Source of the DNA: a virus
Virus record (IMG/VR): IMGVR_UViG_3300005436_000037
Span: 1 to 23,828 of that record
Direction: 5' to 3' (one strand)
Length of the DNA stretch: 23,828 nucleotides
In this document: in pieces, positions 3,073-22,615 of the stretch
How positions within the stretch are numbered: the stretch's first letter is position 1
Layout: every line of letters starts with the position of its first letter
Translations under genes and position numbers: made by a program
Notes under the pieces: generated by a model
Databases searched by the model: none
Told to the model about the DNA's origin: nothing
The model's input: only the letters and a program-made list of their open reading frames with translations

Positions 3073-3339
3073 CTATTCATCCCAGAAACTATTACCATGT
3101 TCCCAATTATTCCTAAGTTGTGTATAAACACAATTTCGGAAAGAAAAGAAATTGGCTCTATCCATATCCGAAGGAAGACCTATATAAAATTCTTCCAGAA
3201 ATTTTGGATCCACTATTGGAATCAATTTCTGGTACGTCTCCTCACAATCTACCCAAGAATCAATTTCCTCATTGGTAATAAAATGATGATTTGGTAATAT
3301 TACCTTTCTAGCCAATTCTTGAAATTTCTTAAAGTTCAC
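3073..3339 (-). CDS. Hypothetical protein, 88 aa
   Basis: No family recognised. The product is acidic to neutral and aromatic-rich, with a central DPKFLEEFYIGLPSDMDRANFF segment and an acidic end (FWDE). It starts with GTG at 3339, preceded by TAGGT, and overlaps the end of the upstream cREC-like gene by 11 bases, so translation is probably coupled. No signal peptide or membrane segment is visible. The UUCG hairpin lies directly downstream. Confidence 0.65.
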   Translation of the reverse strand: MNFKKFQELARKVILPNHHFITNEEIDSWVDCEETYQKLIPIVDPKFLEEFYIGLPSDMDRANFFSFRNCVYTQLRNNWEHGNSFWDE

Positions 3340-5579: not shown

Positions 5580-5608
5580 AGTCTACTCTATAATTCTCTT
5601 TCAGCCAA
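5580..5608 (-). promoter_or_regulatory. Promoter TTGGCT-17-TAGACT
   Basis: -35 TTGGCT is at 5608-5603 and -10 TAGACT at 5585-5580, with a 17-base spacer identical in length to all other members of this family in the window. It drives the leftward operon starting at 5572. The predicted transcript start is within a base or two of the ATG. The 190-base divergent gap also carries a rightward promoter. Confidence 0.7.
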
Positions 5609-8267: not shown

Positions 8268-8549
8268 TTAATAAGAGCTGACGTCATCAGTCAGAAGCCA
8301 ATAGCGAAGGGAAATGCGCCCAGTGGTTGGCGTCTCCAGATAGCTGTCCCAGAGCTTGCTGCACTGGTAAGGTGACTCGGAAACTCGCTTCTGGATGTAT
8401 CTCCAGCAGTCCTGGGCATAGTCGAAAGCGTCATCCAGAGTGTGGAAACGCGACGTTACGCTAACGTGGCTATCTCTCCATTGCACCACAAAAGGACGCG
8501 CCGCGTATTCTGCCTGGGCTTTGCGAATCTCTGGGTCTAGGGTATCCAT
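8268..8549 (-). CDS. Hypothetical protein, 93 aa
   Basis: No family recognised. The product opens MDTLDPEIRKAQAEYAARPF and has a central 'FHTLDDAFDYAQDCW' segment of the kind seen in small proteins that modify or regulate by helix-strand packing. The C-terminus is aromatic-rich. I use the ATG at 8549, five bases after AAGGAGA, rather than the TTG before it. It is a one-gene unit with its own promoter and leader hairpin. Confidence 0.65.
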   Translation of the reverse strand: MDTLDPEIRKAQAEYAARPFVVQWRDSHVSVTSRFHTLDDAFDYAQDCWRYIQKRVSESPYQCSKLWDSYLETPTTGRISLRYWLLTDDVSSY

Positions 8550-8561
8550 CAAAGTCTCCTT

Positions 8562-8603
8562 GGTTGGAGATAGGAGCTTAGCCTATCCCCAACCAGAAGT
8601 AAA
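8562..8603 (-). promoter_or_regulatory. Promoter TTTACT-17-TAAGCT inside a leader inverted repeat
   Basis: -35 TTTACT at 8603-8598, -10 TAAGCT at 8580-8575. The -10 lies in the loop of a 13-base inverted repeat (arms 8594-8582 and 8574-8562, one G-U pair). The downstream arm contains TCTCC, which can pair with the GGAGA of the gene's ribosome site six bases later. Confidence 0.7.
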
Positions 8604-8607
8604 GAGG

Positions 8608-8949
8608 CTAGCAGTAATACTTTGCAGCCTCCAGACAGGCTTCGGCTCCCAGAAGCTCCGATCCAGTGTGTGGATTTCTGTCGTTCTGGAAAATGGCTTC
8701 GCCCGTAACCGCATCCTTGACGGTCAAAGTATAACCAAAGCCAGGGTTACGATTGTCTGTGGGAGCAAAAGAAACGTCTACGTGGCGTGGAAGAGCACCA
8801 TCCCTGCAGCTAAAACAAACTGCCTCGTCGCCAATCCTGACTCTGGATGTATTTGTCTGTTGGTTATGGCCACAGGACAAATCGATTCGATACCAGGTGG
8901 ATACGCCGTTATCGTAGGATTTGGTAATCAGACGGATCTTATTGGGCAT
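8608..8949 (-). CDS. Small zinc-binding protein, 113 aa
   Basis: The N-terminal half has IDLSCGHNQQT and, about 20 residues on, VCFSCRDG, giving a C-x-H plus C-x-x-C set compatible with a zinc ribbon. The rest (GYTLTVKDAVTGEAIFQND and a final helix with two cysteines) is not recognised. The ATG at 8949 follows AAGGAGA. The stop lies 5 bases before the next gene's -35 box. Monocistronic by layout. Confidence 0.65.
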   Translation of the reverse strand: MPNKIRLITKSYDNGVSTWYRIDLSCGHNQQTNTSRVRIGDEAVCFSCRDGALPRHVDVSFAPTDNRNPGFGYTLTVKDAVTGEAIFQNDRNPHTGSELLGAEACLEAAKYYC

Positions 8950-8961
8950 CGTAGTCTCCTT

Positions 8962-9003
8962 GGTTGGAGCCTAGAGAATACCCTAGACCCAACCAGAAGT
9001 AAA
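8962..9003 (-). promoter_or_regulatory. Promoter TTTACT-17-TATTCT inside a leader inverted repeat
   Basis: -35 TTTACT at 9003-8998, -10 TATTCT at 8980-8975, spacer 17. The outer arms GGTTGG/CCAACC (8994-8989, 8967-8962) and inner CTAG/CTAG flank the -10. The downstream arm has CTCC, which can pair with the GGAG site. This is the least regular member of the set. Confidence 0.6.
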
Positions 9004-9022
9004 GTGGCGAACGCCTAAAGGA

Positions 9023-9181
9023 TTATTTGGAAACTGGTGTGATGGTAATATTCTTTACCTCTCGCGCGTTTATCTCTGCATCCAGCCTGACGTTTAGATA
9101 ACCATTCAAAGTGGCCCAATCAGGAAATGTGGTCCGGAATGTCTCTCCATTCGTGTATTCAACGAAGATTTGGAAATTCAT
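9023..9181 (-). CDS. Small beta-rich protein, 52 aa
   Basis: No family recognised. It starts MNFQIFVEYTNGETFRTTFPDW, a beta hairpin, followed by a helix and a last strand (VKNITITPV). It is the third gene of the 9770-9023 unit. GGGAGA lies just before the ATG at 9181, which is why I do not use an in-frame ATG further upstream. Confidence 0.6.
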   Translation of the reverse strand: MNFQIFVEYTNGETFRTTFPDWATLNGYLNVRLDAEINAREVKNITITPVSK

Positions 9182-9192
9182 GGTATCTCCCG

Positions 9193-9423
9193 CTATTTCT
9201 GGTAGGAAAGGACGCATCCAGGGCTCGAAATCGGCTCCTGTTCCTTAAACCAACGCTCCACGCCCGGCTCACATTCGAGCTTTACCAAAACTTCGCAGAC
9301 GCCACGCTTATCCGTTATCCGAAGAACGTCTGAGGGATGGAAGCCACGTTTGGTAAGAGCTTCCTTCACCTGCGCTTCGGTCCCGTTTACTACCAGCTCG
9401 ATGTTGGGCGGTAAGAGTGGCAT
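9193..9423 (-). CDS. Hypothetical protein, 76 aa
   Basis: No family recognised. The product has an alternating strand-helix pattern (IELVVNGTEAQVKEALTKRGF, then VCEVLVKLECEPG). Part of it resembles a small alpha/beta domain. The ATG at 9423 has AGGAGG upstream and lies 2 bases after the previous stop, so it is translationally linked to the 9426-9770 gene. Confidence 0.6.
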   Translation of the reverse strand: MPLLPPNIELVVNGTEAQVKEALTKRGFHPSDVLRITDKRGVCEVLVKLECEPGVERWFKEQEPISSPGCVLSYQK

Positions 9424-9425
9424 GT

Positions 9426-9770
9426 TCAACCCTCCTGGAAGCCTACGTCCAGAAAATAGTCCTTCCACTGGCGCCAGGAACGATCCACGAAGTGCGGCCA
9501 ATTGTTCGGACTATTAAGATAGTCCCAGATCGCCTGCATCAGCATTTTGTTTGCTCTGCTGGGGAGTTGCAGATAGAGAAACGCAGAGTGGATGCCCAGA
9601 GGATCATCGTAGTAGACACCGAGGTAATAATCGTCAGCCAACACATCGATCTTTTCGAATCGAGCCATCTGCACGGTGAAGATCTGCGCGGGCATCTTGA
9701 CGTCGTTTACGTCCTGGTAGAGACCAGCCTGGACCCGCGAGAGAAGAGAAACCGGTGAGAGTCTGGCCAT
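9426..9770 (-). CDS. Hypothetical protein, 114 aa, paralogue of the 10102-10488 gene
   Basis: No named family. The stretch VLADDYYLGVYYDDPLG...LYLQLP...NKMLMQAIW aligns with VVADDNGIGVDYVEPTG...YALELP...NRMVIAGMH of the gene at 10102-10488. In both a Trp-containing helix follows near the C-terminus. The two are thus diverged duplicates. It begins the 9770-9023 three-gene unit under its own promoter, with TAGGAG before the ATG. Confidence 0.65.
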   Translation of the reverse strand: MARLSPVSLLSRVQAGLYQDVNDVKMPAQIFTVQMARFEKIDVLADDYYLGVYYDDPLGIHSAFLYLQLPSRANKMLMQAIWDYLNSPNNWPHFVDRSWRQWKDYFLDVGFQEG

Positions 9771-9786
9771 CGGGAAACTCCTATCT

Positions 9787-9828
9787 GGTTGGAGATAAGA
9801 GCTTAGCCTATCTCCAACCAGAAGTAAA
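9787..9828 (-). promoter_or_regulatory. Promoter TTTACT-17-TAAGCT inside a leader inverted repeat
   Basis: -35 TTTACT at 9828-9823 and -10 TAAGCT at 9805-9800. The arms GGTTGGAGATA/TATCTCCAACC (9819-9809 and 9797-9787) are perfect over 11 bp. CTCC of the downstream arm can pair with the GGAG site. Confidence 0.7.
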
Positions 9829-9833
9829 GAATT

Positions 9834-10034
9834 TTATTCGACCAGAACTGGCTCATCCGAGAAGAACGAGAAGGTCATCGTCTGGTTATTGCAGTGGACC
9901 TGGACGTTCTCGCGACCTGGTTCCGGCTCCCTCTCTATTACCAAATCCACAACGTGACGATCCACCGAGTTATTCGGATGGACGAAGCAGAGCGTATCTC
10001 CGGCTCGAAGATTCTGGGATTGTATCTCGCGCAT
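9834..10034 (-). CDS. Small SH3-like or beta-barrel protein, 66 aa
   Basis: The pattern 'LRAGDTLCFVHPNN...HVVDLVIE' (a GD turn, then strands) suggests a small beta barrel, a guess from residue pattern only. The second half (VQVHCNNQTMTFSFFSDEPV) is also strand-like. The ATG at 10034 follows GGAGA. It has its own promoter and hairpin. Confidence 0.6.
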   Translation of the reverse strand: MREIQSQNLRAGDTLCFVHPNNSVDRHVVDLVIEREPEPGRENVQVHCNNQTMTFSFFSDEPVLVE

Positions 10035-10049
10035 CTGGAAATCTCCTTT

Positions 10050-10094
10050 CTGGTCGGGAGATAGGAGCTTATCCTATTCCCGACCAGAAACCAA
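10050..10094 (-). promoter_or_regulatory. Promoter TTGGTT-17-TAAGCT inside a leader inverted repeat
   Basis: -35 TTGGTT at 10094-10089, -10 TAAGCT at 10071-10066. The arms (10087-10073 and 10065-10050) pair with a one-base bulge. ATCTCC of the downstream arm pairs perfectly with GGAGAT at the ribosome site. Confidence 0.7.
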
Positions 10095-10101
10095 GAGAAA
10101 T

Positions 10102-10488
10102 TTAAATCGGAGCGATACCCAGCGAGAGGATATACGCTCTAACTTCCTCCCAGGTGGTATAATTCTCGGCGTGGTCCTTAAACTCCTTATGCATACCAGC
10201 TATTACCATACGGTTTAGCAGGTACGGAAGCTCCAGAGCGTAAACTTCCATATTCCCTGTGGGCTCGACATAATCCACACCGATTCCATTATCATCGGCT
10301 ACGACCGCTATTCCAGCACCGCCAGAAAAATCCAACTCGAAAATAACCGGTTCTCCCTTATCGGCTTCGCAGCCGAGAAATCCGTACCAATCGCTCTTGG
10401 TAAACTCGCGAAGCTCGTGGACCGTTACTTTCGTAATGGTTACGACCGCAACGAGAGTGGTGTGGTAGCGCTCGGCATAGGTGGGCAT
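10102..10488 (-). CDS. Hypothetical protein, 128 aa, paralogue of the 9426-9770 gene
   Basis: See 9426-9770 for the shared C-terminal half. Its own N-terminal part (TLVAVVTITKVTVHELREFTKSDWYGFLGCEADKGE) has no partner there. The region after ADDNGIGVDYVEPTG is strand then helix (TTWEEVRAYILSLGI). The ATG at 10488 is behind AGGAGA. It is a single-gene unit. Confidence 0.65.
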   Translation of the reverse strand: MPTYAERYHTTLVAVVTITKVTVHELREFTKSDWYGFLGCEADKGEPVIFELDFSGGAGIAVVADDNGIGVDYVEPTGNMEVYALELPYLLNRMVIAGMHKEFKDHAENYTTWEEVRAYILSLGIAPI

Positions 10489-10518
10489 CGAAATTCTCCT
10501 GGTTGGTTATAGATTCGA

Positions 10519-10555
10519 CGGGAGATAGCTTAGTCTATCTCCCGCCAGAAGTAAA
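10519..10555 (-). promoter_or_regulatory. Promoter TTTACT-17-TAAGCT inside a leader inverted repeat
   Basis: -35 TTTACT at 10555-10550, -10 TAAGCT at 10532-10527. The arms CGGGAGATAG/CTATCTCCCG (10544-10535, 10528-10519) are perfect. The leader is longer here, about 30 bases between the arm and the AGGAGA site. Confidence 0.7.
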
Positions 10556-10560
10556 GAGTT

Positions 10561-10782
10561 TTAGGAAATAAATTCGATTTCTCCCTCCAGTAATCCACGC
10601 ATCAGATTAATCGTATTATCTACCAGGACTACTGGAACGTCCAGACCGTTACTTCTCGCGTTCCTAAGCGATTCGCGTATCTGGTCGTTACTCGGAGAAA
10701 CGCCTGTGGTTCTACAAACTGCAGACCATTCGACCTGCATAAGTAGAACCGTCTTTTCGATTCGAGCGCGTTTAATAGCCAT
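10561..10782 (-). CDS. Small helical protein, 73 aa
   Basis: No family recognised. It is helical and slightly basic (IKRARIEKTVLLMQVEW), with a second half of two short strands (VPVVLVDNTINLM) and an acidic end. The start at 10782 has no good SD; it lies 5 bases after the preceding stop and is probably read by coupling. It shares the promoter upstream of the 10788-10970 gene. Confidence 0.55.
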   Translation of the reverse strand: MAIKRARIEKTVLLMQVEWSAVCRTTGVSPSNDQIRESLRNARSNGLDVPVVLVDNTINLMRGLLEGEIEFIS

Positions 10783-10787
10783 GTAGA

Positions 10788-10970
10788 TTAAACCGAAGTC
10801 CGACGAATTACCATTTGGTTCCGGTTAACGACTCGCGTTTGCTTTCCAGGAAGCGAAATCCGATAGGCTCCACCTTGGCGCGATTCGATGCTTGCGGCGA
10901 TTCGGTCTTTCTTCGTCGGATCGGGAACAAACCAAACCGGGGTAGAGGGAGCAAGTTGACGATGGGCCAT
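10788..10970 (-). CDS. Small basic beta-rich protein, 60 aa
   Basis: No family recognised. It is short and Arg/Gln-rich, with a strand-turn-strand pattern (TPVWFVPDPTKKDRIAASIES, then GAYRISLPGKQTRVV). This could be a small OB- or SH3-like fold, but that is only an impression. The ATG at 10970 is behind AGGAGA. It is the first gene of a two-gene unit. Confidence 0.6.
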   Translation of the reverse strand: MAHRQLAPSTPVWFVPDPTKKDRIAASIESRQGGAYRISLPGKQTRVVNRNQMVIRRTSV

Positions 10971-11002
10971 GGTAAAATCTCCTGGTTGGTAAATATCGCT
11001 GA

Positions 11003-11039
11003 CGGGAGAGAGCTTACGCTATCTCCCGCCAGAAGCCAA
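11003..11039 (-). promoter_or_regulatory. Promoter TTGGCT-17-TAAGCT inside a leader inverted repeat
   Basis: -35 TTGGCT at 11039-11034, -10 TAAGCT at 11016-11011. The arms CGGGAGA/TCTCCCG (11028-11022, 11009-11003) are 7 bp. TCTCC can also pair with the AGGAGA site about 30 bases downstream. Confidence 0.7.
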
Positions 11040-11047
11040 GGATTATT

Positions 11048-11365
11048 TTATTCGATATCGGTTTCGTTGGGGATATCCGGAAGAGGGAAAAACTTTACCA
11101 CTCGGGCGTGTCCCTCTCGGAATACGTCTTGCTCCCAATCCCATCCAGCAAAATGCCACTCGTCCTCTCCATCGTTCTCGTAATTGTTGAAGCCGATGGT
11201 ACGGGAATATACCTCGTCCTCCAGAGGATGGCTATTTGGATTATTCCCATTGCAAACCAGAAGAATGACAAGAGTTCCATCCTTCTTGTACTCTTCTATG
11301 GGTTTCCAGTTTACACATTCCACTTCAAAGCTGCCGGGAATTGCATACATGGTTATCTTACCCAT
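11048..11365 (-). CDS. DUF551-like protein, 105 aa
   Basis: The signature NWKPIEEYKKDGTLVILLV is the 'W.PIe...kDGt.vLl' motif, and the end VVKFFPLPDIPNE resembles the 'HW.PLPe.P' end of DUF551-like proteins. It has the same opening as the gene at 7159-7545. The ATG at 11365 overlaps the TAA of the 11365-11835 gene by one base. AGGAG lies 9 bases before it. Function unknown in the family. Confidence 0.7.
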   Translation of the reverse strand: MGKITMYAIPGSFEVECVNWKPIEEYKKDGTLVILLVCNGNNPNSHPLEDEVYSRTIGFNNYENDGEDEWHFAGWDWEQDVFREGHARVVKFFPLPDIPNETDIE

Positions 11366-11835
11366 TATGTGTACTCCTGTTGGATTTTCGTGAAGCTATC
11401 CTCGTCTTTCTTCGCTGCAATAATTGCAGCTTTCGCTTCTATAAGCTTATTTTCCAGGTCGTCGGCAACCTTCAACAGAGTTTCTGCATCCCAATCACCT
11501 CTGGGAGTTTCCAGCATACGAACAGCGGCGAGGGAGCGATTGGCGAGCTTACGTGTGGCATGCATTTCCAGCATAACTCTGGCGTAAGCGGCGTTGACAA
11601 GGTGACGTTGATCCCATCGGTCAGCACCTATTTCATCTCCGTTCTTACTGAAGCGATATTCCTTTTTTGTCGGCTGGTTATCCACCCCGATGATATTCCT
11701 TTCCACCACGATCTGGCCTTTGGGAGTAATCTTCGAGACCTTCGCGAAGAAAGAATTGTGGTCGTATCGTCCGGAGCGACAGAAAACCTCGTCGCCAACC
11801 GTCAGATCTGCCGCCGCTAGAATTCGTTTTGGCAC
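11365..11835 (-). CDS. Hypothetical protein, 156 aa, with C-terminal coiled coil
   Basis: No family recognised. The N-terminus has a small barrel-like start (LTVGDEVFCRSGRYDHNSFFAKVSKITPKG). Residues after about 100 are long helices (LLKVADDLENKLIEAKAAIIAAKKDEDSF), likely a coiled coil. The start is GTG at 11835 with AAGGAGA upstream. The stop touches the start of the DUF551-like gene. It follows the small 11846-12013 gene by 10 bases. Confidence 0.65.
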   Translation of the reverse strand: MPKRILAAADLTVGDEVFCRSGRYDHNSFFAKVSKITPKGQIVVERNIIGVDNQPTKKEYRFSKNGDEIGADRWDQRHLVNAAYARVMLEMHATRKLANRSLAAVRMLETPRGDWDAETLLKVADDLENKLIEAKAAIIAAKKDEDSFTKIQQEYT

Positions 11836-11845
11836 GATAGTCTCC

Positions 11846-12013
11846 TTAGAAGTAGTTTGAAAGCTCAGCCATCAACTCGTCACTGGTAATAATCCCAGAG
11901 AAACCTTCTCGTTGGCGCCATTCGCAATAGGCAGCCTGCAGTTCGGTAGCTTTCGCCTTATCTCCGGCTATTAGTGCGCGGAGTATTTCCAGTGCGGTCT
12001 CATTCGGATCCAT
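11846..12013 (-). CDS. Small protein, 55 aa
   Basis: The product starts MDPNETALEILRALIAGDKAKA, a helix, continues with a helix containing CEWRQREGF, and ends DELMAELSNYF. No family recognised, but the start has AGGAG (in AAAGGAGC) correctly placed and its own promoter. The stop lies directly before the SD of the next gene. The helical heptad-like spacing suggests a small helical bundle. It is short, so coding remains a judgement from context. Confidence 0.65.
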   Translation of the reverse strand: MDPNETALEILRALIAGDKAKATELQAAYCEWRQREGFSGIITSDELMAELSNYF

Positions 12014-12027
12014 CGTGAAGCTCCTTT

Positions 12028-12072
12028 CTGGTCGTTAGATAAGAGTCTATCCTATCTAACGACCAGAGCCAA
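12028..12072 (-). promoter_or_regulatory. Promoter TTGGCT-17-TAGACT inside a leader inverted repeat
   Basis: -35 TTGGCT at 12072-12067, -10 TAGACT at 12049-12044. Perfect 14-bp arms at 12066-12053 and 12041-12028 (CTGGTCGTTAGATA and complement). This arm has TTAGA where others have GGAGA, and its partner changes to match, a clear compensatory change. Confidence 0.75.
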
Positions 12073-12076
12073 GAGG

Positions 12077-12436
12077 CTAGACAAAATATTTTGTCCCACC
12101 AATCGGCGACCAGAATGAAATAATCCTCCAGAACTTTCCGTTTCGAAATTCCCGCACGGAAAACTCGAAGCAAACGCTCTTACCAAATTCCAAGGCGATT
12201 TCGGAGTCTCTGAACTCCTTCTGGTGGTAATAGTTGAAGTTGACGAAATAGATACGGAAGCTGGACTCTGCCGTAAGGTCCACAGACTTCTGAAGAGACA
12301 TCTGCGCCGATACTAAAGCCGAGAAAAGGGGCTCGTTATCCGACGTAGAAGGAATAACTGTAGTCAGGAAGTCCACTATTTCCTTGGCCTTCTGGTTAAT
12401 GATACGTCTCTGCAATTCTTTCTGGTTGGTATCCAT
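12077..12436 (-). CDS. Hypothetical protein, 119 aa
   Basis: No family recognised. It begins MDTNQKELQRRIINQKAKEIVDF, a long helix, then a middle with LFSALVSAQMSLQKSVDL and a beta-rich C-terminal part (VCFEFSVREFRNGKFW). An upstream in-frame start is possible, but GGAGACTAAG just before the ATG at 12436 fixes the choice. It has its own promoter and hairpin. Confidence 0.6.
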   Translation of the reverse strand: MDTNQKELQRRIINQKAKEIVDFLTTVIPSTSDNEPLFSALVSAQMSLQKSVDLTAESSFRIYFVNFNYYHQKEFRDSEIALEFGKSVCFEFSVREFRNGKFWRIISFWSPIGGTKYFV

Positions 12437-12448
12437 CTTAGTCTCCTT

Positions 12449-12494
12449 TTGGACGAGGAAATAGGAGTCTAACCTATCCTCGTCCAAAAACCAA
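12449..12494 (-). promoter_or_regulatory. Promoter TTGGTT-17-TAGACT inside a leader inverted repeat
   Basis: -35 TTGGTT at 12494-12489, -10 TAGACT at 12471-12466. The arms 12487-12473 and 12465-12449 (TTGGACGAGG and CCTCGTCCAA parts) pair with a small bulge. They differ in sequence from the neighbouring copies but keep the fold. Confidence 0.7.
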
Positions 12495-12502
12495 ACTCTT
12501 TT

Positions 12503-12796
12503 TTAATCGTTGATAATAAGCACGAGGATATGGTAATATTTACCATCACGGCCGAGAACTGGGTTCTTATTCGCGTACCGCCAACCACAAATATCCTCGC
12601 CACTAGCGTCTCGGTCCACCTTAACTTGTTGCATTACGTGCCGGTCACCGTGCGGTCCCACGATTTCGAATTCTCTGGGAGCTCCCACCAACAGCAGTGT
12701 CGAAGCTTCCTGTACCAGATGGAACTCGTCAGGCCGTTTGGTTCCTGGGAAGGACGCGCGGCTATAAGAGAAGGAGTGGAAGTTGAGAGCCATCAT
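12503..12796 (-). CDS. Hypothetical protein, 97 aa
   Basis: No family recognised. The middle has STLLLVGAPREFEIVGPHGD and VMQQVKVDRDASGEDICGWRY, strand-turn-strand patterns. The end is beta-rich (KYYHILVLII). Two adjacent ATGs (12796 and 12793) can serve; AAGGAGATA suits either. Single-gene unit. Confidence 0.6.
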   Translation of the reverse strand: MMALNFHSFSYSRASFPGTKRPDEFHLVQEASTLLLVGAPREFEIVGPHGDRHVMQQVKVDRDASGEDICGWRYANKNPVLGRDGKYYHILVLIIND

Positions 12797-12808
12797 TTTC
12801 GTATCTCC

Positions 12809-12853
12809 TTGGTCGGGAGATAAGAGTTTACCCTATCTCCCGACCAAAGCCAA
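12809..12853 (-). promoter_or_regulatory. Promoter TTGGCT-17-TAAACT inside a leader inverted repeat
   Basis: -35 TTGGCT at 12853-12848, -10 TAAACT at 12830-12825. Perfect 14-bp arms TTGGTCGGGAGATA and complement (12847-12834, 12822-12809). TATCTCC of the downstream arm pairs over 7 bp with the GGAGATA ribosome site, with a 7-base loop. Confidence 0.75.
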
Positions 12854-12862
12854 TAACTATTT

Positions 12863-13183
12863 TTAGACCAGCTGGCCTATCTTAGAAAGGAGAAACCGGT
12901 GGACCTTCGAATAGCTGTATTTCTCACACAACTCGCTAAGAAGTTTATCCATTTCCCTTCCTTCCGGACCACCATACATCGCGACGTGATTCGCGTCTAT
13001 CGTTACTTCTAGAGCATGAGCATTGCTGCTAATCTCGCCGCACTCAAATCCTATGGCATTCCAAGTAGACCGAATCACCTTAAGGAGCTTCGTGAGAGTT
13101 TCCGGTTCTATCTTAATCGATTCGCGTTTGGGCTTAGCCGAAACACCAAGCAACGGCCGGTTAACGGCGGATTTCTTAGCCAT
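12863..13183 (-). CDS. Hypothetical protein, 106 aa
   Basis: No family recognised. The N-terminus is basic (AKKSAVNRPLLGVSAKPKRES). A helical segment follows (ETLTKLLKVIRSTWNAIGFE), then strands (HALEVTIDANHVAMY) and a helical end (MDKLLSELCEKYSYS). I prefer the second of two adjacent ATGs (13183) because of its spacing to GGAG. It is divergent from the 13340 gene and has an identical leader sequence. Confidence 0.65.
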   Translation of the reverse strand: MAKKSAVNRPLLGVSAKPKRESIKIEPETLTKLLKVIRSTWNAIGFECGEISSNAHALEVTIDANHVAMYGGPEGREMDKLLSELCEKYSYSKVHRFLLSKIGQLV

Positions 13184-13213
13184 CATCGTCTCCTTTCGTT
13201 CTAGGGTGAGGAA

Positions 13214-13242
13214 AGCTTAATGGATATCAAATCGAAAGCCAA
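13214..13242 (-). promoter_or_regulatory. Leftward divergent promoter TTGGCT-17-TAAGCT
   Basis: -35 TTGGCT at 13242-13237, -10 TAAGCT at 13219-13214. It reads into the 13183 gene through the inverted-repeat leader. The spacer is not palindromic with the downstream sequence, unlike the 8.5-12.9 kb copies. Confidence 0.75.
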
Positions 13243-13279
13243 TAACTTTCGGTTGTGGGAATTACCATAAAGAAAGTTC

Positions 13280-13308
13280 TTGGTTTCTTTAATGGATGTA
13301 GGTAAGCT
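13280..13308 (+). promoter_or_regulatory. Rightward divergent promoter TTGGTT-17-TAAGCT
   Basis: -35 TTGGTT at 13280-13285 in AGTTCTTGGTTT, -10 TAAGCT at 13303-13308. It serves the 13340 gene. The upstream AAAGTTCTTGG also precedes the 14216 promoter. Confidence 0.75.
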
Positions 13309-13339
13309 AGTTTCACCCTAGAACGAAAGGAGACGGAAG

Positions 13340-13762
13340 ATGAATGGTAAAGAGGCTCTTAGTAGAGGATGGGTTAATATCGGTAGGCTACGAAGTAGAC
13401 TGCCGGTGATTTGCCACGGTATGACGTTGGTAATAAACCGTAGGGAATACCAGGCAGGTTCGGTGACCGGTTATGCTCTGCAGTGCGGTGATGATCCGTA
13501 CGAAGCTGTTGTTAGGAGCGAAAGAAACGGTCATACAGAATCTCGGCTGTGGATCAACCCTATGCCGACGGTTATTACCAGTAGCCGCGAAGTCAACGCA
13601 CGGCAGAATAAGCGTATCGATGACGCGCTCCATCTCAAGATCGGTGATTTGGTAATCTTCGAAGGAAACGTTATTCGGCTAACGAACGCTCCCAACCAAA
13701 ATATCGGTTTGGACTATCTCTCGAAAGACGAGATTCTGGATTTGTTGGTATTGCACCAATAA
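13340..13762 (+). CDS. Hypothetical protein, 140 aa
   Basis: No family recognised. The N-terminal half has GMTLVINRREYQAGSVTGYALQCGDD, a strand-rich stretch. The C-terminal half has LKIGDLVIFEGNVIRLTNA, a GD-turn pattern like a small barrel, and ends YLSKDEILDLLVLH. The ATG at 13340 is behind AAAGGAGAC, identical to the divergent gene's leader. Confidence 0.65.
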   Translation: MNGKEALSRGWVNIGRLRSRLPVICHGMTLVINRREYQAGSVTGYALQCGDDPYEAVVRSERNGHTESRLWINPMPTVITSSREVNARQNKRIDDALHLKIGDLVIFEGNVIRLTNAPNQNIGLDYLSKDEILDLLVLHQ

Positions 13763-14215: not shown

Positions 14216-14260
14216 TTGGCTTTGGTAATTGATTAGAGTAGAGTATCTCTCACGGTTGAT
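14216..14260 (+). promoter_or_regulatory. Promoter TTGGCT-17-TAGAGT with CACGGTTGA at the start site
   Basis: -35 TTGGCT at 14216-14221, -10 TAGAGT at 14239-14244, then CACGGTTGAT from 14251. The same CACGGTT lies 5-6 bases after the -10 at 16803 and 18730. The spacer holds a TGGTAAT copy. Confidence 0.75.
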
Positions 14261-16767: not shown

Positions 16768-16809
16768 TTGGTTTCCAGATTTGGTAAGCGTATACTCTCC
16801 TTCACGGTT
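16768..16809 (+). promoter_or_regulatory. Promoter TTGGTT-17-TATACT with CACGGTT start-site element
   Basis: -35 TTGGTT at 16768-16773, -10 TATACT at 16791-16796, CACGGTT from 16803. ACTCTCCTTC (16794-16803) is a perfect 10-base complement of the ribosome site GAAGGAGAGT (16822-16831). Confidence 0.8.
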
Positions 16810-16835
16810 CGGTAATTCATAGAAGGAGAGTCAAA

Positions 16836-17501
16836 ATGGGCTTAGCTGATGCGAATGTGGGGGATCACGTCTCTAAGGGTAATCTCGCCGGTGAGGTTAC
16901 GGAAATTGATGAGGCGGGTTCAATCCGAGTGAAGTGGTTTGACGAGAAGGAGGGTGCAACCTGGGAACAGCCGGTTGATCTGGAGTTGGTGACGAAGGCT
17001 ACAGAGAAACCAAGAGAGGAAGGTCCAACGAAGTCACAAGTGGATGCTGCCGTAGCGAATATGCAGGCATCAGCGGCGCCGGTATTCCTCGCACAGGGAA
17101 CAGAAGTCAAGTTGACTGGCCGGATCAGGACGAAGGATCAGAAGGAATTCGTTGCTGTCCTCAGCAACGGCGATGAGGGAACGTTTCTGGTACAGGATCG
17201 TCTTTTCAAGACCAATGTAGATCTGACGAAGGATCAGTGGCGCGGTCTCACTCGACAAGCCAAGAAGCTTGATTTGGCTCTGGAAGTGGTCGAGGTGAAG
17301 GAGCCCAAGAAGCGTCTCAGCCCCAAGGAGCGTGCTCGTCAGAAGGAAATCGCAGAGCGTCGCTTGGCTCAGCTCGCTGCGGCTCGTAAGAATCTCGCCA
17401 AGAAGCGGGGAACGACCAAGGCCACAAAGGCTGTTGAGGCTTCTGTTGATGATTCGGCTCCTGTCGAGTCCAAGGAGGAAAGCGAAAGCGCAGCGGCATG
17501 A
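16836..17501 (+). CDS. Basic multi-domain protein with beta-barrel-like start and 'LAAARK' helix, 221 aa
   Basis: Residues 1-35 (VGDHVSKGNLAGEVTEIDEAGSIRVKWFD) look like a small SH3/KOW-type barrel. A linker follows. A second strand-rich part (VKLTGRIRTKDQKEFVAVLSNGD) is at about residues 89-112. A long basic helix at about 160-195 holds ERRLAQLAAARKNLAKKRG, and a Ser/Glu-rich acidic tail ends the protein. The helix matches the 16036 protein's C-terminus. It may bind RNA or DNA; not recognised as any named family. A strong promoter, and the 10-bp leader hairpin over its ribosome site, suggest tight control. Confidence 0.7.
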   Translation: MGLADANVGDHVSKGNLAGEVTEIDEAGSIRVKWFDEKEGATWEQPVDLELVTKATEKPREEGPTKSQVDAAVANMQASAAPVFLAQGTEVKLTGRIRTKDQKEFVAVLSNGDEGTFLVQDRLFKTNVDLTKDQWRGLTRQAKKLDLALEVVEVKEPKKRLSPKERARQKEIAERRLAQLAAARKNLAKKRGTTKATKAVEASVDDSAPVESKEESESAAA

Positions 17502-20622: not shown

Positions 20623-20789
20623 CTTGAATCGTTCCTATAGGCCTGAGCCAATAATTCCGCCTCCATCTGTTGTATTAGAGATTCACTTCTGCCGTCGGTA
20701 TCTTTTCTCGCGTAACCTTCATTCTGGTATGCGGCGCGTTGTTGTGCTGATTGGATCAGTTGTTCTAATTCCTCTTTGCTTCTCACCAT
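20619..20789 (-). CDS. Small helical protein, 56 aa
   Basis: The product starts MVRSKEELEQLIQSAQQRAAY and ends LIQQMEAELLAQAYRNDSR, a charged helical peptide. It overlaps the end of gp17 (20783) and the start of the next gene, with GGAGG inside gp17 before its ATG. It belongs to the terminase operon. No family recognised. Confidence 0.6.
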   Translation of the reverse strand: MVRSKEELEQLIQSAQQRAAYQNEGYARKDTDGRSESLIQQMEAELLAQAYRNDSR

Positions 20790-22615
20790 GAGTTCATTCC
20801 TCCGTCCTCCGGATCTGGCATGTCACGGGTATTTATGTTGTTGAAATCCTTGATATGATCCAGTGCTTCGTCCATTGACATCGAGGCGTCCAACCAGAGA
20901 TCATTTCCAACCTTCCTCATTGGTACCGGTTTATACGCATTCGACTCAATAACAGGCATTGCTGGCATCTGTTCTTCCATCCTCACGAGTCGCTCTGCGT
21001 AGAGCTTCTTGCGAAGATTTAAATCAGTGATGTCTTTGAAAACTGTCTGGTTCGTGAGCCAGGAAAACAACCAGAGCGTTGACACCGTATCATCATTATA
21101 ACCGGATTCGGCTGCATATTGTCCGGTCTTTTGGAGCACGAAGGTCGAAAGCTCCTCCACCATGTCGAAGTCCTCAACCAGCAGCTGATTCGTCTCAATC
21201 AACAACTTGAGCTTATTACAGCCCTGCATCTTGGTTCGTTTGGTAGACTTCACGCCAGGGATCTTTGCTTTGGCGGTCTGTTGGACTGTCTGATCTCCCT
21301 GATACGCGAGAGAGAAGAAACAGTTGTCGTAATCCAGTTCTTCAACCAATTCCTTCAGAACCAGTGCGCCGATAGAGTTGTTTTCCACAATGCAATAGGC
21401 GTTGTTATAGTGTAGGGCTGCTTGGTAAATGCTGGAAGCAAACAACAGTGTATCGATTTCGTTGTCTCGGAATTTGGCAGAAACTGTCCAAACGTCGGTT
21501 GTTACATCGAATACAGTGAAACAATGGTAATCTAATTCCTTTCCTTCGCTTGGATCGGCGGATAGAACATACGCATGATTTGGTATTGGATCCTGGTAGA
21601 CCTTGAGTCTTGTTTCCATTTCAACCTTGATTGGGTCCTTGGTTGTAAGCTCGCGAAGCTTCTTGCCGCTGATGAGTGTATGGCTCGAACCAATAAATTC
21701 ACATAGGACTTCCTGGGCGAACTTTCTCTCTCCAAGAATCCTACGCTCCTGCGCTGCCCATTTCTCGTCTCTTCCAGGAACAGCAGTGTAATGTACTTCC
21801 TTCGCGACAAATCCATTCCATTCTTCTGGTTTGGTCTTCTGTTTAACAGCTTCCTGCCAGAACTTATAGAACATATTCATGCCGTTTGGAGTTGAAGTCA
21901 TAATCATCTGGGAAGTCTTACCCGAGCTGATTGTTGGCCAAACGGAAGTGAAGAATTCGTCCGCCACATTGGATGGAACATGGGCGAACTCATCCAGATA
22001 TAGAAGGTTAATCATGAATCCACGGATAGATCCGGAGCTGGTTGTTTCGCAGATAATACGGCAACCATTTTCCATAGCAATTGTGGACTTATTCCATTCG
22101 AGAACACCCTGTTGGATAAACATTGGGAGATTCTCATAGGCTAACTTGATCTTGGCTAAAATTTCGTTTGCAATCTTTTCTTTCTGAGCCAGAACACCAA
22201 CTGTCTTATGTTGCTGGAAGAGAACATACCAAAGAATATAACCCGTCGTACAGGTTGTTTTACCAGTCTGACGTGGTAATTTACAGATAACATAGCGATT
22301 ATCCTTATAGGTGCTGATGATATCCTTCTGGTAATCTCGAAGTTTGATCTGCATAAGACCTTCATCGAGATTAACAATTTTGATGTAATGCTCGATGAAA
22401 TATAATGGATCCTGGGAACATTTGGCAATTTCCATAATCTGTTCTGGTGTGAACTCGATAGGAACACCAGCCTTCTTCAGCTTAGGATTGCTGAGAAATG
22501 CAATTTCGTCATCAAAATCCGCCGCAATCTTGAGTCCTGGTTGCGTTATTCGTCGCGCGGACTTCTTAACAGCAGTTTCTACTTTCTTATTCTTGGAACC
22601 TTTTGGTCTGCCCAT
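20783..22615 (-). CDS. 17: Terminase large subunit gp17 (packaging ATPase and nuclease)
   Basis: This is the motor of DNA packaging. It has 610 residues, as in T4 gp17. The ATPase half has Walker A PRQTGKTT (about residues 114-121), Walker B LLYLDEF (about 204-210, with the catalytic Glu) and the coupling motif TSTPNG (about 240-245). The nuclease half shows SADPSEG (about 352-358, first Asp), VEN (about 410-412, Glu) and NDD (about 507-509). All the key acidic residues are present, so it should be active. It starts 1 base after gp16 stops; AAGAAG in that stop region is the SD. Four small genes follow it before the GIY-YIG gene ends the group. Confidence 0.97.
   Translation of the reverse strand: MGRPKGSKNKKVETAVKKSARRITQPGLKIAADFDDEIAFLSNPKLKKAGVPIEFTPEQIMEIAKCSQDPLYFIEHYIKIVNLDEGLMQIKLRDYQKDIISTYKDNRYVICKLPRQTGKTTCTTGYILWYVLFQQHKTVGVLAQKEKIANEILAKIKLAYENLPMFIQQGVLEWNKSTIAMENGCRIICETTSSGSIRGFMINLLYLDEFAHVPSNVADEFFTSVWPTISSGKTSQMIMTSTPNGMNMFYKFWQEAVKQKTKPEEWNGFVAKEVHYTAVPGRDEKWAAQERRILGERKFAQEVLCEFIGSSHTLISGKKLRELTTKDPIKVEMETRLKVYQDPIPNHAYVLSADPSEGKELDYHCFTVFDVTTDVWTVSAKFRDNEIDTLLFASSIYQAALHYNNAYCIVENNSIGALVLKELVEELDYDNCFFSLAYQGDQTVQQTAKAKIPGVKSTKRTKMQGCNKLKLLIETNQLLVEDFDMVEELSTFVLQKTGQYAAESGYNDDTVSTLWLFSWLTNQTVFKDITDLNLRKKLYAERLVRMEEQMPAMPVIESNAYKPVPMRKVGNDLWLDASMSMDEALDHIKDFNNINTRDMPDPEDGGMNSW

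Follow-up and report, generated by a model that had tools for sequence, protein, structure and literature searches.

Promoter-like boxes nested in covarying leader hairpins before small genes of a T4-like phage fragment

Introduction

In the transposase leaders of IS10 and IS50, transcripts that originate outside the element cover the ribosome site by folding whereas that of the inner promoter does not, and the gene is in this way protected from read-through. The PeSLs of phages RB49, phi1, PST and nt-1, the subject of work by Arbiol (2010) and Comeau (2014), reportedly include stem-loops that are effective terminators; their modular exchange between genes is also on record (PMC4503421). In phage T4, the late promoters of e, soc, 49 and I-TevI are nested in a leader hairpin, and e is repressed 100-fold through such a leader (PMC3014915). 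Here we describe an array of leader cassettes, each joining promoter-like boxes to a hairpin, in a virus fragment of 23.8 kb (IMG/VR record IMGVR_UViG_3300005436_000037, positions 1 to 23,828), the whole of which is called the window below.

The cassettes share with the T4 leaders a promoter within the hairpin, the confinement of both arms together to read-through RNA and the position of one arm at the ribosome site. Peculiar to T4 are late promoters (TATAAATA), single genes and the pairing of the Shine-Dalgarno sequence or the start codon itself, whereas the putative promoters arrayed in the window are early-type and include a -35 box (TTGGCT/TTTACT-17-TAnnnT instead of the late sequence), the left arm is made of the -35/-10 spacer and the stem usually stops at the Shine-Dalgarno sequence. 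PeSLs are alike in joining a promoter, in the cassettes a putative early-type one, to a stem-loop, in having many copies among small variable genes and in being swapped between genes; they differ in that their stem-loops are reported terminators, whereas the stems described here run straight into the ribosome site. Early promoters of RB49 with a hairpin centred on the -10 box have the axis 0.5-2.5 bases past the start of that box and the left arm in the 17-bp spacer, as here, but their boxes are near-consensus (TTGACA/TATAAT), their stems shorter and their ribosome sites mostly well downstream. IS10 and IS50 offer the same protection from read-through, at transposon ends, for a single gene and without a covarying family. 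What is new here is that putative early-type promoters form an array in which every one makes up the loop of a read-through hairpin, with covarying arms, that abuts the ribosome site. That the interlocking of promoter and fold is unusual, as a first-pass annotation of the window had it, is not supported, since nested leader promoters are textbook knowledge for the four T4 genes (PMC3014915) and the early promoters of RB49 share the centring of the axis on the -10 box.

Results and Discussion

Layout and register of the cassettes

The nine leaders that the first-pass annotation had assigned to one plan are all present, on the minus strand of the window and within 4.3 kb (Table 1). Each consists of a -35 box, 17 bp containing the left arm, a -10 box at the hairpin tip, the right arm, a ribosome site and a small ORFan gene; the hairpin directly follows the stop codon of the upstream gene. 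The three arm pairs quoted in that annotation are exact (9784-9822, 12027-12067 and 12809-12847). The uniformity it claimed holds for the layout and gives way in detail at genes 10488 and 10970, where 12-14 nt separate stem and ribosome site, and at gene 8949, where the stem is bulged. Eight further leaders of this type are found in a relative, contig 3300050821_016858 (loci L008, L048 and L142), which brings the cassettes to 17. In every one of them a stem-loop is joined to the promoter, including R3346 of the relative, which has lost most of its stem and keeps a weak one. Counted from the start of the -10 box, the hairpin axis invariably lies 0.5-2.0 bases on (sd 0.48). The interlocking of promoter and fold that had been proposed is supported. 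In 15 of the 17 the stem ends between 2 nt inside and 4 nt before AAGGAG. Strong hairpins ending at the ribosome site are present in 6 of 52 leaders in the window and 5 of 29 in the relative, compared with 10 of 809 in other T4-like loci, among which a generic scan found no further array.

The boxes themselves are strongly over-represented. The window holds 13 copies of the pattern TTKRYT-17-TANNCT, where 0.40 are expected, and none of 100 shuffles reached 13. Nine of these box pairs belong to the hairpin leaders; the other four (5580, 13214, 13280 and 16768) occur without a hairpin of the cassette type, so that the promoter-like boxes can stand apart from the fold. The -10 box of the cassettes is always TAnnnT and in the relative takes forms such as TATAAT, TATTAT and TAGAAT. 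In a stricter scan with the E. coli consensus, no cassette box passed; the putative promoters are loosely sigma70-like.

Covariation of the arms and the fold of the sense RNA

The arms change together, as had been claimed. Cognate arms pair with a mean energy of -22.6 kcal/mol and non-cognate arms with -13.4 kcal/mol, and when right arms were permuted among all cassettes, none of 20,000 permutations reached the observed summed pairing energy; with one representative for each of ten arm classes, none of 50,000 did. In seven ungapped cassettes, compensatory double changes are seen at 12 of 17 stem positions and Watson-Crick pairs fill 97 of 119 cells (82%), a fraction that falls to 24-34% when the partner is slid by 1-3 bases; these data come from one gene family in two phages, and the independent events are fewer than the cells. 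Some arms of the relative are like those of the window and others are unrelated to them (TCGAGCCTAGA/TCTAGGCTCGA, CTTTGGGCTGGTG/CACCAGCCCAAAG and GAGGCTAGAT/ATCTAGCCTC). We regard such unrelated arm classes as the strongest part of the covariation evidence.

The two strands are not equivalent. When the strands are folded alone, stability favours the sense hairpin over the antisense one in 16 of the 17 cassettes, by a mean of 3.3 kcal/mol (p=3e-5, a value inflated by the common ancestry of the cassettes), and there are 21 G.U pairs in the sense strand versus 8 in the antisense strand. Together, the pairing of cognate arms and this stability bias make it likely that selection acts on the fold of the gene-sense RNA. 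The covariation likewise bears out the proposal that the fold, rather than a single protein site, is under selection; an operator for a single protein was rejected, the arms being too divergent between cassettes. As to the form of the fold, for which both an RNA hairpin and a cruciform had been put forward, the strand bias favours the former and disfavours the latter, because in a cruciform the two strands would have to fold equally well. A device acting on DNA, be it the operator of a dimeric regulator or a cruciform by which the -10 region opens, would account for the centring of the palindrome on the -10 box; given the sense/antisense asymmetry, the several unrelated arm sequences and the palindrome-free copies of the boxes at 5580, 13214 and 13280, we consider it highly improbable.

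Exchange of cassettes between genes

Comparison of the window with its relative indicates that cassettes are exchanged between genes. Near-identical cassettes precede unrelated genes, as with 8549 and R2978 (96% identity over 46 bp), and the cassettes of the likewise unrelated genes 8949 and R1824 are 87% identical over 55 bp. Conversely, the orthologous pairs 10970/R2739, 10488/R3346, 12436/R3778 and 12796/R4576 have different cassettes or none. Both patterns would also be expected if the fold were not directly selected, that is, if recombination or gene conversion dispersed the cassettes while template-switch correction of near-palindromes kept the arms complementary. Such an origin appears very unlikely in view of the unrelated arms at the same register, the tolerance of G.U pairs in the sense strand only and the existence of hairpin-less copies of the promoter.

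Proposed insulation from upstream read-through

In the reading that we favour, each cassette is a self-contained promoter and leader unit before a small accessory gene of a T4-like phage. RNA polymerase arriving from the upstream gene would copy both arms, and the read-through RNA would form a hairpin of 12-19 bp ending at the ribosome site. Transcription from the cassette's own promoter, in turn, is predicted to start about 7 bases past the -10 box; since this position falls within the right arm, the gene's own transcript would be without the left arm, and its leader, about 20-25 nt long, would stay open. Ribosome loading would then be efficient on this transcript and inefficient on read-through RNA, an insulation analogous to that of T4 e, soc, 49 and I-TevI, here with early-type promoters. 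Whether the hairpin insulates each gene from upstream read-through in this manner seems to us nearly evenly balanced, with doubt slightly prevailing, although no other reading considered here is as probable.

Several observations are in line with insulation. Among them are the constant register of the 17 cassettes despite unrelated arms, the closeness of most stem ends to AAGGAG, the cognate-arm test and the sense-strand bias, as well as leaders of like logic (gene 16836, its counterpart in the relative and the two copies in contig 3300035557_000039, all below) and the precedent of T4 e. By the position of the boxes and the starts predicted from them, the own RNA of the cassettes would have no 5' arm. 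Opening of the ribosome landing region is calculated to cost 16.5 kcal/mol in read-through RNA versus 7.3 in the nested transcript, and against the fairer control of a shuffled 5' extension the cost is 16.3 versus 10.9 kcal/mol (p=0.001). Read-through itself is likely because none of the nine window hairpins coincides with an intrinsic-terminator-like site. The sequence appears to be built to place a stable stem flush with the ribosome site without burying the Shine-Dalgarno sequence, and such a stem might block binding of the 30S subunit. Three results weigh against insulation by this route. The Shine-Dalgarno hexamer of read-through RNA is no less accessible than with a shuffled 5' extension (4.4 versus 4.6, mean z about 0, p=1.0), and full Shine-Dalgarno sequestration as a general rule was rejected on this control. 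In four cassettes (10488, 10970, R3346 and R2739) the landing region does not become costlier to open through the hairpin. Finally, blocking of the ribosome cannot explain the architecture in all its occurrences, as the hairpins of RB49 mostly lie far upstream of the ribosome site.

A hairpin in read-through RNA might also serve the upstream message, either as an RNase III-type cut site or as a 3' cap shielding that RNA from exonucleases. Stable stems of 12-19 bp with small loops between most neighbouring small genes would suit such a role, as would selection on the sense strand; the lock of the axis on the -10 box would be left unexplained, and we judge processing or protection to be quite unlikely.

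Related layouts in other genomes

The layout recurs in related phages, as the eight cassettes of the relative, the shared register in RB49 and two copies in a further contig attest. In RB49, an energy cut-off picks out nested hairpins at 15 of 73 near-consensus promoters, compared with a mean of 5.6 and a maximum of 11 in 50 shuffles, whereas a simple count of paired bases gives no separation (51 real versus 60 shuffled). The best of these hairpins, with axes 0.5-2.5 bases past the start of the -10 box, are at 3201, 2832, 119937, 39130, 36985, 42355, 57732 and 114786. Because the ribosome sites of RB49 mostly lie well beyond the stem, what all these elements have in common is a hairpin that only read-through RNA can form; blocking of the ribosome site would be a variant of the clade of the window. 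In a side observation, RB49 (L130, L146, L147 and L148) also has early promoters on the minus strand at 58416, 117165, 122881, 134549 and 158969 in which a hairpin takes up all of the 17-bp spacer, as in TTGACA GGGGAGGATAACTCCCC TACAAT.

These RB49 elements bear on another reading, namely that the cassettes punctuate transcription as PeSLs would: the nascent read-through hairpin would stop incoming transcription or make it pause, and a new start at the embedded promoter would make each gene its own transcription unit. RB49 has hairpins centred on the -10 box, spacer-only hairpins and tandem terminator-then-promoter elements, all confined to read-through RNA, and the position of the window hairpins right behind a stop codon fits punctuation. 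Nonetheless, a T run follows none of the 17 stems, AAGGAG or a similar purine-rich sequence standing there instead, and no cassette carries a terminator-like match; by these sequence signs the cassettes lack the terminator of PeSLs, an intrinsic terminator was rejected, and we regard punctuation as unlikely.

The contig with two copies, 3300035557_000039, was found by pattern scans. Its early-type promoters TTGACT-17-TAGGAT/TAAGAT lie inside CTCCTTGGTTGGTGT/ACACCAACCAAGGAG, and its Shine-Dalgarno sequences are fully paired in read-through RNA (opening 14.7 versus 1.2 and 12.1 versus 1.7). Genes for a polymerase, a helicase, a clamp loader and an SbcC-like protein suggest that it is a T4-like phage. 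Outside this group, sigma70-like promoters nested in Shine-Dalgarno-pairing hairpins (TTGAC...CTCCTTGG...CCAAGGAG) precede chromosomal or phage genes in Sphingopyxis (L174, L175 and L189), Clostridia (L162), Crocosphaera (L165), Desulfuromusa (L171) and two viral contigs (L151 and L157), and this variant of the layout may be widespread. In three other T4-like contigs (L100:3236, L118:12636 and L119:2565), TAAATA lies in or beside the loop of a strong leader hairpin and resembles the core of the T4 late promoter. Pattern hits in L049 and L139-L141 were set aside as chance or coding matches by their appearance, with no promoter evident.

The cassette resembles a gene switch that is both portable and insulated, akin to the arrangements of T4 and RB49. 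A bolder view, possible although we hold it doubtful, is that the design extends over the whole genome in a T4-like lineage: all accessory genes would have a swappable, self-insulating switch whose spacer is antisense to the leader, and RNA would be productive only when started locally, with fold and register kept while the sequence drifts; the register in RB49 would then point to a general class, so far uncatalogued, of promoters in T4-like phages that sense read-through. If the insulation reading is right, phages could add, swap and reshuffle accessory genes without a neighbour's transcription driving the newcomer, the shield against read-through travelling with the switch. It would be a compact part, with promoter spacer and leader insulator made of the same bases, and it links two observations in the T4 family, the read-through-silencing nested promoters (T4 e, soc and 49) and the mobile PeSL cassettes.

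Source of the window and further features

The genes of the window mark it as part of the genome of an uncultured T4-like phage. Its terminase (20783-22615, minus strand) is nearest to those of T4-like phages, the best match being Pelagibacter phage Mosig (44% identity), and tail sheath and tail tube genes are also encoded. Searches of IMG/VR with the terminase, the tail sheath and two small proteins found close relatives only among contigs of metagenome 3300050821, with terminase and sheath 84% identical. Small genes fill 8.2-13.2 kb of the window; the ten array proteins scanned gave no Pfam match and one weak PHROG match. The proteins of genes 9426-9770 and 10102-10488 are distant paralogues (26% identity, E=1e-6). 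No DNA similar to the window array, the relative's array or two leaders from elsewhere was found in annotated phages, and nothing in the window matched Rfam at the gathering score.

Table 1. Cassettes and further promoter-like leaders of the window
Feature	Position	Strand	-35 box	-10 box	Boxes at	Hairpin	Gene	Remarks
Cassette 1	8561..8603	-	TTTACT	TAAGCT	8575-8603	8561-8595	8268-8552	
Cassette 2	8961..9003	-	TTTACT	TATTCT	8975-9003	8961-8995	8608-8949	bulged hairpin
Cassette 3	9784..9828	-	TTTACT	TAAGCT	9800-9828	9784-9822	9426-9770	
Cassette 4	10047..10094	-	TTGGTT	TAAGCT	10066-10094	10047-10090	9834-10034	
Cassette 5	10514..10555	-	TTTACT	TAAGCT	10527-10555	10514-10550	10102-10488	ribosome site 12 nt away
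Cassette 6	10999..11039	-	TTGGCT	TAAGCT	11011-11039	10999-11032	10788-10970	ribosome site 14 nt away
Cassette 7	12027..12072	-	TTGGCT	TAGACT	12044-12072	12027-12067	11846-12013	
Cassette 8	12447..12494	-	TTGGTT	TAGACT	12466-12494	12447-12489	12077-12436	
Cassette 9	12809..12853	-	TTGGCT	TAAACT	12825-12853	12809-12847	12503-12796	
Hairpin-less boxes (17-bp spacer)	13214..13242	-	TTGGCT	TAAGCT			12863-13186	control: promoter needs no fold
Hairpin-less boxes (17-bp spacer), divergent	13280..13308	+	TTGGTT	TAAGCT			13340-13762	
Promoter (17-bp spacer) and occluder	16768..16831	+	TTGGTT	TATACT			16836-17501	-10/+1 region is left arm ACTCTCCTTC, pairing with the whole ribosome site GAAGGAGAGT

The leader of gene 16836 differs from the cassettes in geometry and follows the same logic. 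Opening of its Shine-Dalgarno sequence is calculated to cost 12.5 kcal/mol in read-through RNA versus 3.7 in the nested transcript. The relative keeps this occluder (L008, about 11270-11361) with changed arms and Shine-Dalgarno sequence (5.4 versus 2.2). The two hairpin-less promoters form a divergent pair within 13190-13340, a region 82% conserved in the relative, where a flanking long-range inverted repeat (CGTCTCCTTTCGTTCTAGGGTGA and its complement) contains both ribosome sites. A motif CACGGTT(GATAA) stands right after the -10 box of two plus-strand leaders (about 14230-14250 and 16800-16815); it is kept in the relative, and these leaders perhaps represent a second promoter class.

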